DNA of 64,000 bases. Origin: Thermosynechococcus sp. HN-54 (GTDB taxonomy: Bacteria; Cyanobacteriota; Cyanobacteriia; Thermosynechococcales; Thermosynechococcaceae). This document shows positions 894-58,854 of the stretch, one piece after another. The first letter of the stretch is position 1; each line of letters starts with the position of its first letter. The notes under the pieces are model-generated. The model had not been told where the DNA came from and did not search any database. It was given only the letters and a program-made list of their open reading frames with translations. The DNA lies in the NCBI RefSeq assembly GCF_023650955.1, contig NZ_CP098039.1:1612001-1676000 (forward strand). The letters are read 5' to 3'. The position numbers and the translations under genes are program-made.

Positions 894-2300
894 ATGGTTT
901 ATCTTCTTATTGATCTGGATAACAAACTACTGAGAACGGATGTTCTTCTAGAATTAACTTTTTTGTTTTTTAGTGGGCCTCTAATTCAATTATTCAAAAC
1001 AAGAAGCTTTAATCATGCCCAGATCAAAAGAAAATTAGCTACCTTTACTGACTTAGACGTTACCACATTACCCTACAACTCAGAAGTTATTCAGTATATC
1101 CAAGATTGGAAAGCAAAGGGGGGTAAGGTTGCCCTCGTTACTACCACTGATCAGCTCATTGCTGAGAAGATTGCTGCCCATTTAGGGCTTTTTGATGAGG
1201 TTTATGGGTCTGATGGCCAGCTTAATTTGAAGGGAGTGCGTAAGGCAAGGTTTATCGTAGAGCGTTTTGGTGAGAAGAATTTTATCTATATGGGAGATTC
1301 TGAGGCTGATTTACCTGTCTGGGCAGTTGCGGCCAAAGCAATTACGGTCAATGCGTCTCCTCGGCTGCGCAAAAAAGTCGAGCAAATCAACCCCAATGTG
1401 GAACATCTAGGCAGCACAAAACGGAGCATTAAGCCTTACTTAAAAGAAATTCGCCCCTATCAGTGGGTAAAAAATGTTTTGGTCTTTGTGCCTATGCTCG
1501 CGGGGCATCAGTTTAATTTGCCCACCTTTGGGATTTCGCTGGTGGCAGCGGTTGCTTTTAGTTTGACGGCGTCCAGTGTCTATGTCTTAAATGATCTTTT
1601 GGACTTGCACGCCGATCGCGCCCATCCCCGCAAGCGTTATCGTCCCTTTGCTGCTGGGGATCTTCCCCTCTTCCATGGAATCTGGATGATTTTAGTCCTC
1701 TTAGGACTGGGGATGGCGATCGCCACAACGATTCATTTACCCTTTCTTGGGATTCTACTGCTCTATTATGGTCTCACGACTGCCTACTCCTTTTACCTAA
1801 AGCGGCGGATTATTATTGACATTTGCACGCTGGCTGGCCTTTACACGATTCGTATCTTTGCGGGTGCGGTTGCCACAGGGATTGCCCTCAGTGTGTGGCT
1901 GTTGGCCTTCTCAATGTTTTTCTTCTTTTGTCTGGCAACGGTCAAGCGGCAAGCAGAACTGGTGGATCATCGCGATCGCAAACAGCTTAGAGCTAGTGGT
2001 CGGGGCTATCATATTGACGATTTACCTGTGCTCACAATGATGGCAATTGGGGCAGGGTATGTCTCTATTCTTGTCCTAGCCCTTTACATTAATTCTCCCC
2101 AAGTCCAGCTTCTTTACACAAGGCCACAGGTGCTCTGGGGCATTTGCTGTGTGCTTCTATACTGGATTACCCGAACTATCATGCTGGCCCATCGAGGTTT
2201 GATGCACTATGATCCAATCGTTTATGCAATTAAAGATCGACAAAGTCAAATCTGTTTCTTGATTTGTCTAGTTTGCTTTATTTTAGGTGGGATTTTATGA
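894..2300 (+). CDS. HAD-like domain fused to UbiA prenyltransferase (decaprenyl-phosphate phosphoribosyltransferase-like)
   Basis: 468 aa. Residues 1 to about 175 are a HAD-type phosphatase domain: motif I D7-L-D9 followed by N-K instead of the usual G-T, motif II around VTTTD, motif IV GDSEAD at 134-139. Residues from about 180 are a UbiA membrane prenyltransferase with the metal-binding NDLLD at 233-237, D241, and a second loop YSFYLKRRIIIDI. The phrase IRPYQWVKNVLVF is typical of the DPPR-synthase branch, which joins phosphoribosyl diphosphate to a polyprenyl phosphate. The next three genes are GtrA-, DprE1- and DprE2-like, which supports that reading. The HAD domain could remove the 5-phosphate of the product (inference). 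The first kilobase is AT-richer than its neighbours, which may indicate transfer. Confidence 0.85.
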   Translation: MVYLLIDLDNKLLRTDVLLELTFLFFSGPLIQLFKTRSFNHAQIKRKLATFTDLDVTTLPYNSEVIQYIQDWKAKGGKVALVTTTDQLIAEKIAAHLGLFDEVYGSDGQLNLKGVRKARFIVERFGEKNFIYMGDSEADLPVWAVAAKAITVNASPRLRKKVEQINPNVEHLGSTKRSIKPYLKEIRPYQWVKNVLVFVPMLAGHQFNLPTFGISLVAAVAFSLTASSVYVLNDLLDLHADRAHPRKRYRPFAAGDLPLFHGIWMILVLLGLGMAIATTIHLPFLGILLLYYGLTTAYSFYLKRRIIIDICTLAGLYTIRIFAGAVATGIALSVWLLAFSMFFFFCLATVKRQAELVDHRDRKQLRASGRGYHIDDLPVLTMMAIGAGYVSILVLALYINSPQVQLLYTRPQVLWGICCVLLYWITRTIMLAHRGLMHYDPIVYAIKDRQSQICFLICLVCFILGGIL

Positions 2301-2704
2301 CGTTACAAACCCTCATTCTTCGCTATGCGGCTTTTGCCGCTATTGCCACCTTTATGAATCTATTTTCTCAAAGAGTGATATTACTGATTGATAATCGCTT
2401 GCCTTACCTTATTGCTGCCGTTGCAGTCGGTACACTGGTGGGTTTAGTGGTGAAATATTATCTAGATAAACGCTGGATCTTTTTTGATCATAGAAAAGGC
2501 ATTTATCACGATAGTCGTCAATTTAGTCTCTATGCTTCGATGGGGATTTTCACAACTGCCATCTTTTGGGGATTTGAAACCGTCTTTTGGTTACTTTGGC
2601 AAAGCCATTTCATGCGAGAACTTGGGGCAATCATTGGTTTAACGATTGGCTATGTTGTCAAGTATCACCTAGATAAGCGATATGTCTTCTCCCATCACTC
2701 ATAG
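2297..2704 (+). CDS. GtrA-family small membrane protein
   Basis: 135 aa, four hydrophobic segments. The ATG at 2297 overlaps the stop of the upstream gene (ATGA) and follows AGGTGGG, so I prefer it to an upstream in-frame start at 2264. The protein is an internal duplication: VKYYLDKRWIFF near the middle is mirrored by VKYHLDKRYVFS at the end, a hallmark of GtrA proteins. The family moves or helps present polyprenyl-phosphate sugars across the membrane; in mycobacteria the GtrA protein Rv3789 sits beside dprE1 and dprE2, as here. A role with polyprenyl-phosphate pentose is therefore likely but inferred. Confidence 0.85.
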   Translation: MTLQTLILRYAAFAAIATFMNLFSQRVILLIDNRLPYLIAAVAVGTLVGLVVKYYLDKRWIFFDHRKGIYHDSRQFSLYASMGIFTTAIFWGFETVFWLLWQSHFMRELGAIIGLTIGYVVKYHLDKRYVFSHHS

Positions 2705-4040
2705 GGGCTATCTACAACAGCTCTGCGGCTGGGGACGTTATCCTGTACAGCCCTGTCATGTGTATTGCCCGCGCTCAGAATCCGAAATTCTCCAGCTGCT
2801 CAACAGCGGTTTGCCGCTCATTGCCCGCGGTAATGGCCGTGCCTATGGGGATAGCGCCCTCAATGGGAAAGCAACACTGCAAATGCGTCACTTCAACCGC
2901 CTCTTAGGATTTAATCCGCAAACCGGTCAATTAATTGCTGAGGCAGGGGTTCTGTTGGCAGACATTCTGGAGCTTTTCGTGCCGCGTGGTTGGTTTCCCT
3001 TGATTACCCCCGGTACGAAGTTTGTAACAGTGGGGGGCATGATTGCGGCTGATGTCCATGGTAAGAATCACCACAAAGAAGGAAGTTTTGTTCAGAGCTT
3101 GGACTGGTTGGATCTCCTAACCACGGGGGGTCAAATCCATCGCTGCTCCCCTTCCGAAAATCGGGATTTATTTTACTGGACGGTGGGGGGCATGGGTCTG
3201 ACAGGGGTGATCCTCAGGGCAGCCTTTCGATTACGCCCCATTGAAACCGCTTGGATTCGCCAAACCACCCGTATCGCCAAGAATTTAGACGAGGTCATTA
3301 ATCTCTTTGAAGCTGCTCAGGACGTGACCTACTCCGTGGCTTGGATTGATTGTCTGGCGGTTGGTTCGCAGTTAGGGCGGTCTGTGGTCATGCTAGGGGA
3401 ACACGCGACACGGGAGGAGTTGCCAGCCAAATATCGCCAAAGGCCACGGCGGACTCCGCGACGCCGCAAACTCTCGATTCCCGTGGATTTTCCCAATGGT
3501 GCCTTGAATGCATTGACCGTGCGTGCCTTTAATCAACTGTATTTTCTAAATCAGCAACGCAAAGCTGGGCAGTCCTTTGTTGATTGGGATACTTTCTTCT
3601 ATCCCCTTGATAGTCTGTTGGGATGGAATCGCATCTATGGGCGGCGCGGCTTTGTCCAGTTCCAATGCGTCTTGCCCTTGAGGACTGCCCGCGAAGGCCT
3701 GTCTGAGTTACTGCATTGCACGTCAGCGGCTGGGGCGGGGTCATTTCTGGCGGTCTTGAAACAGCTAGGGGATCAACAGGGCTATTTTTCCTTCCCGATG
3801 GCGGGCTATACCTTAGCCCTTGACTTTCCTGTGTCTCAGCGCACCTTCAAAGTTTTAGATCAACTGGAGGAAATCACCCTGCATTATGGGGGTCGGTTTT
3901 ACCTCGCCAAGGATAGCCATTTAACGCCGATGTGCTTACGCAAGTCCGATTCTCGGGTCGAGAGGTTTGTGCAAGTCAGGAACGCTCATCAGTGGAATGT
4001 CCACTTTGCTTCAGAACAGTCGAAGAGGCTAAATTTATGA
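2682..4040 (+). CDS. FAD-binding oxidase, DprE1-like (polyprenylphosphoryl-ribose 2'-oxidase)
   Basis: 452 aa, overlapping the GtrA gene by 23 bp. It has a vanillyl-alcohol-oxidase-type FAD domain: GRAYGDSAL at 52-60 for the pyrophosphate, PGTKFVTVGGMIAADVHGKNHH at about 110-131, and near the end GGRFYLAKDSH with K410 at the place of the DprE1 active-site lysine. DprE1 oxidises the ribose 2'-OH of decaprenylphosphoryl ribose to a keto intermediate that DprE2 reduces to arabinose. The neighbouring SDR gene makes this pairing convincing. Other FAD-linked sugar oxidases (alditol oxidase type) are the alternative, but gene order argues against them. Confidence 0.88.
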   Translation: MSSPITHRGYLQQLCGWGRYPVQPCHVYCPRSESEILQLLNSGLPLIARGNGRAYGDSALNGKATLQMRHFNRLLGFNPQTGQLIAEAGVLLADILELFVPRGWFPLITPGTKFVTVGGMIAADVHGKNHHKEGSFVQSLDWLDLLTTGGQIHRCSPSENRDLFYWTVGGMGLTGVILRAAFRLRPIETAWIRQTTRIAKNLDEVINLFEAAQDVTYSVAWIDCLAVGSQLGRSVVMLGEHATREELPAKYRQRPRRTPRRRKLSIPVDFPNGALNALTVRAFNQLYFLNQQRKAGQSFVDWDTFFYPLDSLLGWNRIYGRRGFVQFQCVLPLRTAREGLSELLHCTSAAGAGSFLAVLKQLGDQQGYFSFPMAGYTLALDFPVSQRTFKVLDQLEEITLHYGGRFYLAKDSHLTPMCLRKSDSRVERFVQVRNAHQWNVHFASEQSKRLNL

Positions 4041-4771
4041 CGGCTCCTGTGCTGATTTTGGGGGCAACTTCCGATATGGGGCGGGCGATCGCCCACCGCT
4101 TTGCGGCTCAGGGCTATCCAATTCAATTGGCGGCACGGCAGGTCAGTCGCCTAGAGGCAGATAAAGCGGATTTGCAAATCCGCTACGGTGTGGCCGTCAG
4201 TCTCCATGAATTTGATGTCTTGGCAGTGGAGACCCATGCAAGTTTTATCCAAGAACTCCCTGAGCAACCGGCGATTGTGATCTGCGTTGTCGGCTTCATG
4301 CCAGACCAAAAAGCCTGTGAGCAGGATTTGTCCCTTGCCCTTGAAGTGATGCGCACGAATTATGAAGGCCCAGCGGTCATTTTGAGTCTGTTTGCCAATG
4401 TATTTGAGCAACGGGGGTTTGGGACGTTGGTGGGGATTTCCTCTGTGGCTGGGGAACGGGGGCGGGCGAGTAATTACTTCTATGGCTCCGCCAAGGCGGG
4501 GTTCACAGCATTTTTGTCGGGGTTGCGGCATCGCCTTGCCCAATCGGGGGTGCAGACCTTAACGGTTTTGCCGGGCTATGTCCATACACGGATGACTGAA
4601 GGCATGAAGTTGCCCCCCCTACTCACTGCCCAGCCACAGGAAGTGGCCAATGCTATCTTCTCAGCGATAGAAAAAAAGAAAGACGTGATCTACGTGCGAC
4701 CCATTTGGCGCTGGATCATGGTGGTGATTCGTTGGCTTCCTGAACCCTTGTTTAAGCGACTGTCTCTGTGA
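4037..4771 (+). CDS. Short-chain dehydrogenase, DprE2-like (2-keto-pentofuranose reductase)
   Basis: 244 aa. ATG at 4037 overlaps the DprE1-like stop as ATGA and has GAAGAGG upstream; a longer reading from 3932 lies inside the preceding gene. The nucleotide-binding turn is LGATSDMG at 8-15, and the catalytic set is seen in GISSVAGERG and YFYGSAKAG (Tyr-x-x-x-Lys). The C-terminus ends in a basic, hydrophobic tail (WRWIMVVIRWLP) that could rest on the membrane. Coupled to the DprE1-like gene, it would complete ribose-to-arabinose epimerisation on a lipid carrier using NAD(P)H. The specific substrate is inferred from the neighbourhood. Confidence 0.88.
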   Translation: MTAPVLILGATSDMGRAIAHRFAAQGYPIQLAARQVSRLEADKADLQIRYGVAVSLHEFDVLAVETHASFIQELPEQPAIVICVVGFMPDQKACEQDLSLALEVMRTNYEGPAVILSLFANVFEQRGFGTLVGISSVAGERGRASNYFYGSAKAGFTAFLSGLRHRLAQSGVQTLTVLPGYVHTRMTEGMKLPPLLTAQPQEVANAIFSAIEKKKDVIYVRPIWRWIMVVIRWLPEPLFKRLSL

Positions 4772-4778
4772 ACTGCCC

Positions 4779-5555
4779 ATGACTCGTTGGATTACCCTGC
4801 TGACCGATTTTGGCCATCAGGATGTGTACGTGGGGGTGATGAAGGGGGTCATCTTAAGTATCCATCCCCAAGCTCAGATGATTGATCTATGCCATGAAAT
4901 TCCAGCCCAGGATTGCCGCACGGCCAGTTTTCAGCTACTGCAAGCGGTGCCCTATTTTCCTCCAGAAACGGTGCATTTGGTGGTGGTGGATCCGGGGGTG
5001 GGAACCAGTCGGCGAGCGATCGCCCTCGATCTCGGCAGTGGGTATTGCATTGGTCCAGATAATGGGGTCTTTACCCACGTGTGCGATCGCTATCCCCCCC
5101 GGCGAGTGGTTGAACTCACCCAGCCGCAGTTTTGGCGTACCCCCAACCCCAGTGCCACCTTCCATGGGCGGGATATTTTTGCCCCTGTGGCTGCCCATAT
5201 AGCGGCAGGAACAGATCTCGCGCGCCTTGGCTCTGCCATTGACCCAGACAGTTTGGTGCGGTTGCCCCATCTCACCTATGAGATCACGCCCCAAGGCGTC
5301 CAAGGCTGGATTCAAGCCATTGATCACTTTGGCAATGTGGTCACCACTCTCCCTGCGGCTCTTTTAGTCAAGGGCTACCAGCAGATCCAGATTCAGGGGC
5401 AGCAGATTCCCCTTGTGCAAACCTATGGCGAGGCTCCCCCCCAGCACCTAATTGCCTTGGTCGGCAGTCATGGGTTTATTGAGCTAGCGGTGAATGGCGG
5501 CAGTGCTCAGTCGGTCTTAGGCTGCCAGAATGGCGATGCCCTGTGGCTAGTTTGA
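4779..5555 (+). CDS. SAM hydroxide adenosyltransferase (DUF62 / SAM-hydrolase family)
   Basis: 258 aa, seven bases after the DprE2-like gene. It opens with the family signature ITLLTDFGHQDVYVGVMKG and carries VVDPGVGT, GPDNGVF and the FHGRDIF motif of the adenosyl-binding site. Members split S-adenosylmethionine into adenosine and methionine by attack of hydroxide; related enzymes are fluorinases and chlorinases, but these carry extra loop residues I do not see. The gene runs with the envelope cluster but has no obvious functional link to it. It ends 9 bp inside the 3' end of the convergent vWA gene. Confidence 0.88.
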   Translation: MTRWITLLTDFGHQDVYVGVMKGVILSIHPQAQMIDLCHEIPAQDCRTASFQLLQAVPYFPPETVHLVVVDPGVGTSRRAIALDLGSGYCIGPDNGVFTHVCDRYPPRRVVELTQPQFWRTPNPSATFHGRDIFAPVAAHIAAGTDLARLGSAIDPDSLVRLPHLTYEITPQGVQGWIQAIDHFGNVVTTLPAALLVKGYQQIQIQGQQIPLVQTYGEAPPQHLIALVGSHGFIELAVNGGSAQSVLGCQNGDALWLV

Positions 5556-57636: not shown

Positions 57637-58695
57637 CTACAGAGCGTTACCACGGGGGAGTACCTCTTCTGGGAAGACAAAGTTTTCATGGGGTTGGTCT
57701 TGGGGCGCCATCCAAGCGCGAATGCCCTCGTTCAAGAGCAGGTTCTTCGTGTAGAACGTCTCAAACTCAGGGTCTTCCGCTGCTCGAATCTCCTGCGAAA
57801 TAAAGTCATAGGACCGCAGGTTCAACGCCAGACCCACGATGCCAATCGCACTCATCCACAGCCCCGTCACGGGCACAAACAACATGAAAAAGTGCAACCA
57901 GCGCTTGTTCGAGAAGGCAATCCCAAAAATTTGGCTCCAAAACCGGTTCGCCGTCACCATCGAGTAGGTCTCTTCCGATTGGGTGGGACTAAAGGCACGG
58001 AAGGTGCTCGCCGATTCCCCATCTTGGAAGAGGGTGTTTTCCACGGTGGCACCATGGATGGCACACAACAGGGCACCACCGAGCACACCGGCCACCCCCA
58101 TCATGTGAAAGGGATTCAAGGTCCAGTTGTGGAACCCTTGGAAGAACAGGAGGAAGCGGAAGATGGCGGCCACGCCAAAGCTGGGGGCAAAGAACCAACT
58201 GGATTGCCCCAAGGGGTAAATCAAGAAGACGCTGACAAAGACAGCAATGGGGGCACTGAAGGCAATGGCGTTGTAGGGACGGATGCCCACCAAGCGAGCA
58301 ATTTCAAACTGCCGCAGCATGAAGCCAATGAGGCCAAAGGCGCCGTGGAGGGCGATAAAGGTCCACAGACCCCCCAGTTGGCACCAGCGGGTGAAGTCCC
58401 CTTGGGCTTCGGGCCCCCAGAGGAGAAGGAGGGAGTGCCCCATGCTGTTGGCCGGGGTGGAAACGGCAACGGTGAGGAAGTTGCAGCCTTCGAGGTAGCT
58501 GGAAGCAAGGCCGTGGGTGTACCAAGAGGTAACAAAGGTGGTACCGGTCAGCCAGCCACCGAGGGCAAGGTAGGCACAGGGGAAAAGCAGGATGCCTGAC
58601 CAGCCGACAAAGACAAATCTGTCACGTTTGAGCCAGTCGTCAAGGATGTCAAACCATCCCCGTTCTGCTGGCGCTCGTCCAATCGCGATTGTCAT
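57637..58695 (-). CDS. psbD: Photosystem II D2 protein, copy without psbC
   Basis: 352 aa from ATG 58695 ([21 protein letters not shown]), the standard D2 length; a TTG three codons earlier is in frame. Five membrane helices with the ligands for chlorophyll ([19 protein letters not shown]), non-haem iron and plastoquinone QA ([28 protein letters not shown]). psbC normally overlaps the 3' end of psbD; here a terminator follows, so this is the single-gene psbD copy (psbD2-type). Such copies are induced by high light in other cyanobacteria. Confidence 0.97.
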
Positions 58696-58854
58696 AAAAC
58701 TCAACTCCGAAAGGAAGTGATAAAGGCAGATTCGTGAGGTAGCTCAGTGGGAGAATAAGAGCCAAGTTTACGAATCTTAATAACGACTCTAATCTAGCAA
58801 AGGCGTTTTGTGGTTTTCAACAAGGCATATCCCGTGAGATGACCTTGTATATCC

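Follow-up and report, generated by a model that had tools for sequence, protein, structure and literature searches.

A predicted polyprenyl-phosphate D-arabinofuranose operon in the cyanobacterium Thermosynechococcus sp. HN-54

The 64-kb stretch analyzed here (hereafter, the window) lies within the 2.7-Mb single-contig genome of Thermosynechococcus sp. HN-54. At positions 894-4771 of the forward strand, it carries four overlapping genes with all frames intact, encoding a HAD-UbiA fusion protein, a GtrA-family protein, a DprE1-like oxidase and a DprE2-like short-chain dehydrogenase/reductase (SDR). We predict that this operon supplies a lipid-linked D-arabinofuranose (D-Araf). A sequence-only reading had described a four-gene row with ATGA, 23-bp and ATGA overlaps, and the coordinates bear this out:

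894-2300, + strand: whole HAD-UbiA protein, 468 aa (PRK08238 match)
894-1418, + strand: HAD phosphatase domain, residues 1-175 of HAD-UbiA, presumed to remove the 5-phosphate; motif I is DLDNK (profile match and alignment)
1419-2300, + strand: UbiA domain, residues 176-468, presumed to act as a polyprenyl-phosphate phosphoribosyltransferase; NDxxDxxxD is intact, as are the other residues tested
2297-2704, + strand: GtrA-family small membrane protein, 135 aa, presumed flippase of the lipid-linked pentose; ATGA overlap (gtrA_1 match)
2682-4040, + strand: DprE1-like FAD oxidase, 452 aa, presumed to catalyze 2'-oxidation of polyprenyl-phosphate ribose; 23-bp overlap
4037-4771, + strand: DprE2-like SDR, 244 aa from the ATG at 4037, presumed to reduce the 2'-keto intermediate to arabinose; ATGA overlap

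The HAD-UbiA and GtrA genes are both AT-rich, with GC contents of 44.8% and 40.4%, against 53.5% for the window; the DprE1-like and DprE2-like genes, at 52.5% and 54.3%, are not.

HAD-UbiA matched the NCBIfam model of the fused protein, PRK08238, at 616.9 bits (cut-off 351) over residues 2-465, making it a full-length member, and its second-ranked models were those of decaprenyl-phosphate phosphoribosyltransferase (best E-value 4e-50). The GtrA protein is likewise a member of its NCBIfam family, gtrA_1 (167.3 bits, cut-off 50). By sequence, the nearest solved structures were decaprenyl-phosphate phosphoribosyltransferase 8j8j for the UbiA domain, DprE1, and DprE2 (21gq_C). No top match fell among other UbiA branches or alditol oxidases, in favor of the sequence-only reading, which had named such matches as contrary evidence.

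Most of the tested catalytic residues are conserved. In the UbiA domain, N233, D234, D237, D241, R320, K351, R352, E355 and R370, residues expected of the family, were invariant in 92/92 sequences. The equivalents of Mycobacterium tuberculosis (Mtb) DprE1 Y60, H132, K134, W230, Q334, Q336 and K367 were found in all 69 DprE1-type sequences and that of K418 in 68 of them, with one gap. The SDR has the triad expected of a family member, with Ser136 and Tyr149 present in 66/66 sequences and Lys153 in 65/66 (one gap). Together, scores and residues point to a polyprenyl-phosphate arabinose pathway over other UbiA or oxidase branches.

The gene arrangement was compared across the best 80 of 544 confirmed HAD-UbiA stretches in named genomes, a set from which close relatives of the window may be missing. 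Within 8 kb of HAD-UbiA, GtrA, DprE1 and DprE2 were all present in at least 28 of the 80 loci, at least 24 of them with the order and strand of the window; DprE1 and DprE2 without GtrA were seen in 25 loci, only one or two of these genes in 9 and none in 18, all neighbor-gene counts being lower bounds, as 14 of the 80 loci have less than 4 kb of downstream sequence. Since the 24 matching loci come from other genomes, the four-gene arrangement is not due to chance. Compared with eight relatives in the genus (seven in the case of DprE2), the four genes of the window gave ratios of nonsynonymous to synonymous substitution rates (dN/dS) of 0.06-0.18; those of the adjacent SAM-hydrolase gene were 0.10-0.18. 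DprE1 is under purifying selection in the genus.

The gene identities, catalytic residues, gene order, selection and likely origin have computational support; in the pathway that follows, we infer the individual reactions, the pentose and its lipid carrier, the flipping step, the transferase and the acceptor. The HAD domain, or another phosphatase, would take off the 5-phosphate from the product of the UbiA domain; the DprE1-like enzyme would oxidize C2, and the DprE2-like enzyme would reduce it with inverted stereochemistry to give the arabinose epimer. GtrA would then carry the lipid-linked arabinose over the inner membrane, and on the far side a GT-C transferase encoded elsewhere in the genome may spend the donor on a surface glycan or protein. 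That the operon makes and exports polyprenyl-phosphate D-arabinofuranose is given a probability of about 0.82. The donor half of the sequence-only reading, synthesis and flipping of polyprenyl-phosphate arabinofuranose, is well backed by family, residue, gene-order and selection evidence.

Several results, given in this paragraph and the next, weigh against this reading. The top model of the oxidase is the DprE1 equivalog NF053785, at 404.5 bits and so under the cut-off of 500. The top model of the SDR is PRK07102 (365.4 bits, cut-off 267), which has no named function, with the DprE2 equivalog NF053786 ranked second at 205.3 bits, under the cut-off of 250. Because these equivalog scores fall under the NCBIfam cut-offs, we use the names "DprE1-like" and "DprE2-like". 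Moreover, the positions of Mtb DprE1 Y314, N385 and C387 are occupied by F, T and A in the protein of the window, as they are in 67, 60 and 69, respectively, of the 69 DprE1-type sequences. C387 is the residue to which covalent inhibitors of mycobacterial DprE1 attach; with A at its equivalent, this cysteine is unavailable in the enzyme of the window. The low scores and the three substitutions would also fit a redox pair that uses lipid-linked ribose to make a different pentofuranose (for example, a C3 epimer) or a keto sugar, as would the description of an added epimerase that sets the pentofuranose type (PMC11127046). We regard such a product as unlikely, as most active-site residues are conserved and the same paper ties xylofuranose to a single GalE-like SDR and arabinofuranose glycans to DprE1/E2 homologs (PMC11127046). 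The UbiA and FAD oxidase superfamilies are broad, and the operon might in principle combine a prenyltransferase of another UbiA branch with an alditol or lactone oxidase in an unrelated function. This is very improbable and was rejected on the model scores: the best non-phosphoribosyltransferase UbiA model gave an E-value of 9e-12 against 2e-185 and 4e-50, and the next FAD oxidase model 7e-11 against 7.5e-121.

The remaining adverse points concern the transferase, the HAD domain and the UbiA tree. Six queries covering four kinds of GT-C transferase gave no match in the HN-54 genome, other GT-C families not being searched. HAD motif I (DxDx[T/V]) reads DLDNK in the window, with both Asp kept and Thr replaced by Lys (1/92 sequences); in the relative G179 (locus L029, 9062-9100) it reads NLDNT, the nucleophile Asp being changed to Asn while the HAD-UbiA frame stays open. 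In a tree of the UbiA domain, the genus stands beside Alphaproteobacteria, with weak joining branches (Shimodaira-Hasegawa-like approximate likelihood ratio test values of 28-85). The negative transferase search would be expected of a relic whose donor is unused, the transferase having been lost and the HAD domain decaying in this strain. Two further observations lean the same way: a putative transferase gene, RRG (see below), is present in G179, broken in G386 and absent here, and for the HAD type of the window, dN/dS was higher in the HAD domain (0.15-0.44) than in UbiA (0.09-0.21) in 15/15 pairs. Among three pairs of the other HAD type, it was clearly higher in one. We nonetheless find a relic quite improbable, given four intact frames, dN/dS values akin to those of the SAM-hydrolase gene, and the retention of the operon genes in G089, G388, G389 and G390, where no linked transferase was seen. 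A weak phosphatase would be compatible with synthesis and export of the arabinose donor, because partial function is kept in two described cases: an ORF15 protein mutated at the HAD nucleophile retained some activity (PMC11127046), and deletion of noeN in IRBG74 lowered but did not abolish arabinosylation (PMC2443382, PMC5080398). N, D, D and D of NDxxDxxxD were required for the activity of ORF15 (PMC11127046).

The genus has two types of HAD domain (window 894-1418, loci L027-L034). Synonymous divergence (dS) between the types was 1.4-2.8 in the HAD domain and 0.4-0.9 in the UbiA domain of the same pairs, and this contrast is a sign of recombination inside the HAD-UbiA gene. The HAD motif changes and the two recombining HAD types in the genus are new; as natural variants, they are relevant to the question of the need for the 5-phosphatase domain.

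The sequence-only reading had seen no arabinosyltransferase in the window, and a crude hydropathy scan of open reading frames of at least 100 aa agreed, with no further GT-C-like protein. Among the queries of the HN-54 genome, the PMT_2 model gave no match (it was positive in 11/14 control genomes), nor did the RRG profile A2 (positive in G179 and G386) or the TMEM260-like model PF11028 (positive in G247). Matches to the G247 TMEM260-like protein, the G179 RRG protein and the neighbor profile A4 were also absent, no genome being positive in these three. Emb/Aft-type enzymes lie outside the own-model coverage of the GT-C queries, so the negative result does not extend to them. In relatives within the genus, differing membrane proteins are encoded just upstream of HAD-UbiA. 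In G247, this is a TMEM260-like (PF11028) GT-C protein just 5' of HAD-UbiA, with a differing flank past it. In G179, it is a 376-aa membrane protein without Pfam or NCBIfam match, here called RRG. In the window, this place is taken by a short gap:

717-893, no strand: 177-bp intergenic stretch 5' of the operon, empty site relative to the RRG-bearing 2.5-kb stretch of G179 and G386

Positions 6-111 of the gap correspond to positions 8-114 of the G179 stretch (87%), and positions 154-177 to positions 2501-2524 (92%). As the gap matches both flanks of the 2.5-kb stretch, the alignment identifies it as an empty RRG site, through either gain in the relatives or loss here.

Homologs of the G179 RRG protein (28-29% identity) were found in 3 of the 80 HAD-UbiA loci, which were retrieved for their HAD-UbiA and so are not an independent test. 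The gene lies directly after DprE2 in Rhizobium terricola and upstream of the operon in a proteobacterial metagenome-assembled genome (MAG, L069); in Litoreibacter (L050), it lies 7.8 kb off on the other strand, at a locus with HAD-UbiA and GtrA and no detected DprE1 or DprE2. The sole RRG match in 72,556 plasmid records was in Ruegeria conchae, 1.4 kb upstream of a four-gene operon (1/103 HAD-UbiA plasmids). Out of 386 cyanobacterial genomes, 7 matched the RRG profile, 16 DprE1 and 4 both, the match of G179 being by construction, as it is a row of the profile. With the genus left out, DprE1 was found in 3/6 RRG genomes versus 12/382 (hypergeometric 5e-4, kinship ignored), and in G264 and G143 no more than about 1 kb separates the RRG gene from DprE1. 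Since DprE1 went unmatched in three of the seven RRG genomes, and five of the RRG profile matches were either weak or partial (E-values 2e-13 to 7e-7), the RRG family is probably broader than arabinose.

The 12 members compared all share, in this order, an acidic residue with WL directly after it, RRG, Lys and DxxR. A fold model from three sequences (model 1; predicted local distance difference test [pLDDT] 52, predicted template modeling score [pTM] 0.60) retrieved, by title, GT-C enzymes in its first 27 rows, including AftD, AftA, AftB and Emb, at Z 9.5-5.4, a range that for helical models may reflect mere shared helix arrangement; the first unrelated row had Z 4.8. Model 2, from the same sequences with another first row (pLDDT 50, pTM 0.47), did not reproduce this match: its top rows were mostly designed and helical-repeat proteins, with GT-C enzymes reaching only ranks 8 and 24, where short stretches were aligned. 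At an E-value threshold of 0.001, Foldseek returned nothing for model 1 or model 2, AftD ranking first at E 0.46 for model 1. The modeled GT-C fold is thus suggestive only, and RRG is a candidate arabinosyltransferase. A wider view is that RRG ([D/E]WLIN...RRG...RK[D/E]...DxGRW) is an undescribed GT-C family using polyprenyl-phosphate D-Araf in Alphaproteobacteria and cyanobacteria, and that the genus pairs a constant donor operon with exchangeable upstream transferases (RRG in G179, broken RRG in G386, TMEM260-like in G247, none here). We hold this to be possible but doubtful, because RRG near the operon is rare (3/80 loci, one of them without DprE1/DprE2), which weakens the arabinosyltransferase assignment, and because G179 is itself in the profile. 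If the exchangeable-transferase view is true, surface arabinosylation would differ between strains. The unnamed RRG family and the variable position beside the operon are new, and are the most useful lead, although one outside the window.

The operon is not unique among cyanobacteria. In the sampled genomes, HAD-UbiA (E-value 1e-60 or better) was found in 6/386 genomes and 3/142 genera, and DprE1 homologs (1e-40 or better) in 16/386 genomes and 13/142 genera; within the genus, 9/11 genomes have DprE1. The two other cyanobacterial fused HAD-UbiA proteins show 45% identity. The 30 top loci of the 80 (50-59% identity) are alphaproteobacterial by title, except Nocardioides L042, a Granulosicoccus MAG (L065) and an unplaced proteobacterium (L069); the other 50 are of mixed taxa, with 43-48% identity. 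L042, titled Nocardioides marinus, carries an alphaproteobacterial-looking four-gene operon, and the assembly is perhaps mislabeled or contaminated. A quick DprE1 tree, which leaves out nine further DprE1-positive cyanobacteria, placed the genus within a starred (95) set; of its 33 rows, the 24 from outside the genus are alphaproteobacterial apart from the same three loci. The operon most likely entered an ancestor of the genus from an alphaproteobacterium-like donor. In the same tree, G060 falls with Pseudomonas massiliensis and Burkholderiaceae, G211 clusters with an Acidovorax MAG, and G286 has a position of its own; the separate places of the genus and these three genomes suggest at least three entries of DprE1 into cyanobacteria. 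HAD-UbiA was present in 103 of the 72,556 plasmid records, each with less than 60% identity. Carriage by phages was rejected as unsupported, with no match of the DprE1 query in 50,697 phage records; one phage with an ORF15-type system has been described, of a kind that this query would not reveal (PMC11127046).

Other cyanobacteria have variant clusters. In G211 (L036, 230-2185), HAD-UbiA and GtrA form one 651-aa protein (GtrA part 46% identity), followed by DprE1 and DprE2. In G264 (L145, 4133-11639), UbiA is unfused, and the HAD phosphatase instead shares a chain with a flippase-like LPG_synthase_TM domain; the cluster continues with another LPG_synthase_TM protein, DprE2, DprE1 and an RRG-family protein. 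These fusions support a functional link of the pathway genes. In addition, G286 (L037, 8001-13996) has unfused UbiA, DprE1 and DprE2 near an exosortase (EpsH) gene, with an RRG-family gene elsewhere (L153).

We regard the operon of HN-54 as a known kind of system in a new host. Among the closest described systems are the three-component ORF15 systems of Citrobacter youngae O1/O2, which also have a HAD domain N-terminal to a UbiA phosphoribosyltransferase, provide a biochemical precedent for HAD-UbiA proteins, and have DprE1/E2 homologs as the mark of the arabinofuranose type, as in the window (PMC11127046). Relative to these systems, the window has GtrA and not a MATE flippase, no linked GT-C and no known lipopolysaccharide side-chain target. 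The noeCHOP operon for D-arabinosylation of Nod factor in Azorhizobium and Sesbania rhizobia likewise groups mycobacteria-like D-Araf donor genes, but with the proposed transferase noeP inside the operon, a separate proposed phosphatase (noeN in IRBG74) and Nod factor as the target (PMC2443382, PMC5080398). The pilin D-Araf genes PSPA7_6245-6251 and TfpW of Pseudomonas paraeruginosa also make a lipid-linked D-Araf donor (PMC12369383), with a separate phosphatase (PMC11127046) and a known transferase, TfpW, at the pilin locus; both likenesses are by description, not sequence. In the comparison with mycobacteria drawn in the sequence-only reading, the same reaction series as for Rv3806c, DprE1, DprE2 and Rv3789 is expected, and these include the nearest solved relatives by sequence. 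The HAD-UbiA fusion, gene order and tree lie nearer to Proteobacteria, and the mycobacterial UbiA is unfused and the phosphatase unrelated (PMC11127046).

Among titles and abstract openings, we found no report of DprE1 or decaprenylphosphoryl arabinose in cyanobacteria or of arabinose in Thermosynechococcus, although figures S11 and S12 of PMC11127046, with further candidate systems, may name cyanobacteria. Known above all from mycobacteria, where it is a drug-targeted route, the lipid-linked D-arabinofuranose pathway would extend to a cyanobacterial genus. As the genus has a transformable laboratory strain (PMC12288463 mentions that T. elongatus is naturally competent), the pathway could be tested outside pathogens.

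Two neighboring features of the window complete the description:

4779-5555, + strand: SAM hydroxide adenosyltransferase-family gene, starting 7 bp after the operon
57640-58704, - strand: psbD, product near-identical over 352 residues to photosystem II D2 in entries such as 1s5l and 2axt, which are of Thermosynechococcus origin

The first of these is probably outside the arabinose pathway, because both members of the genus without a DprE1 match, G387 and G392, keep it too. Finally, in G089, two 98%-identical copies of a 1.3-kb element lie between arabinose operon genes (L027, 6102-7400 and 9165-10463); its open reading frame matches no Pfam family and may represent the antisense strand of an insertion sequence.

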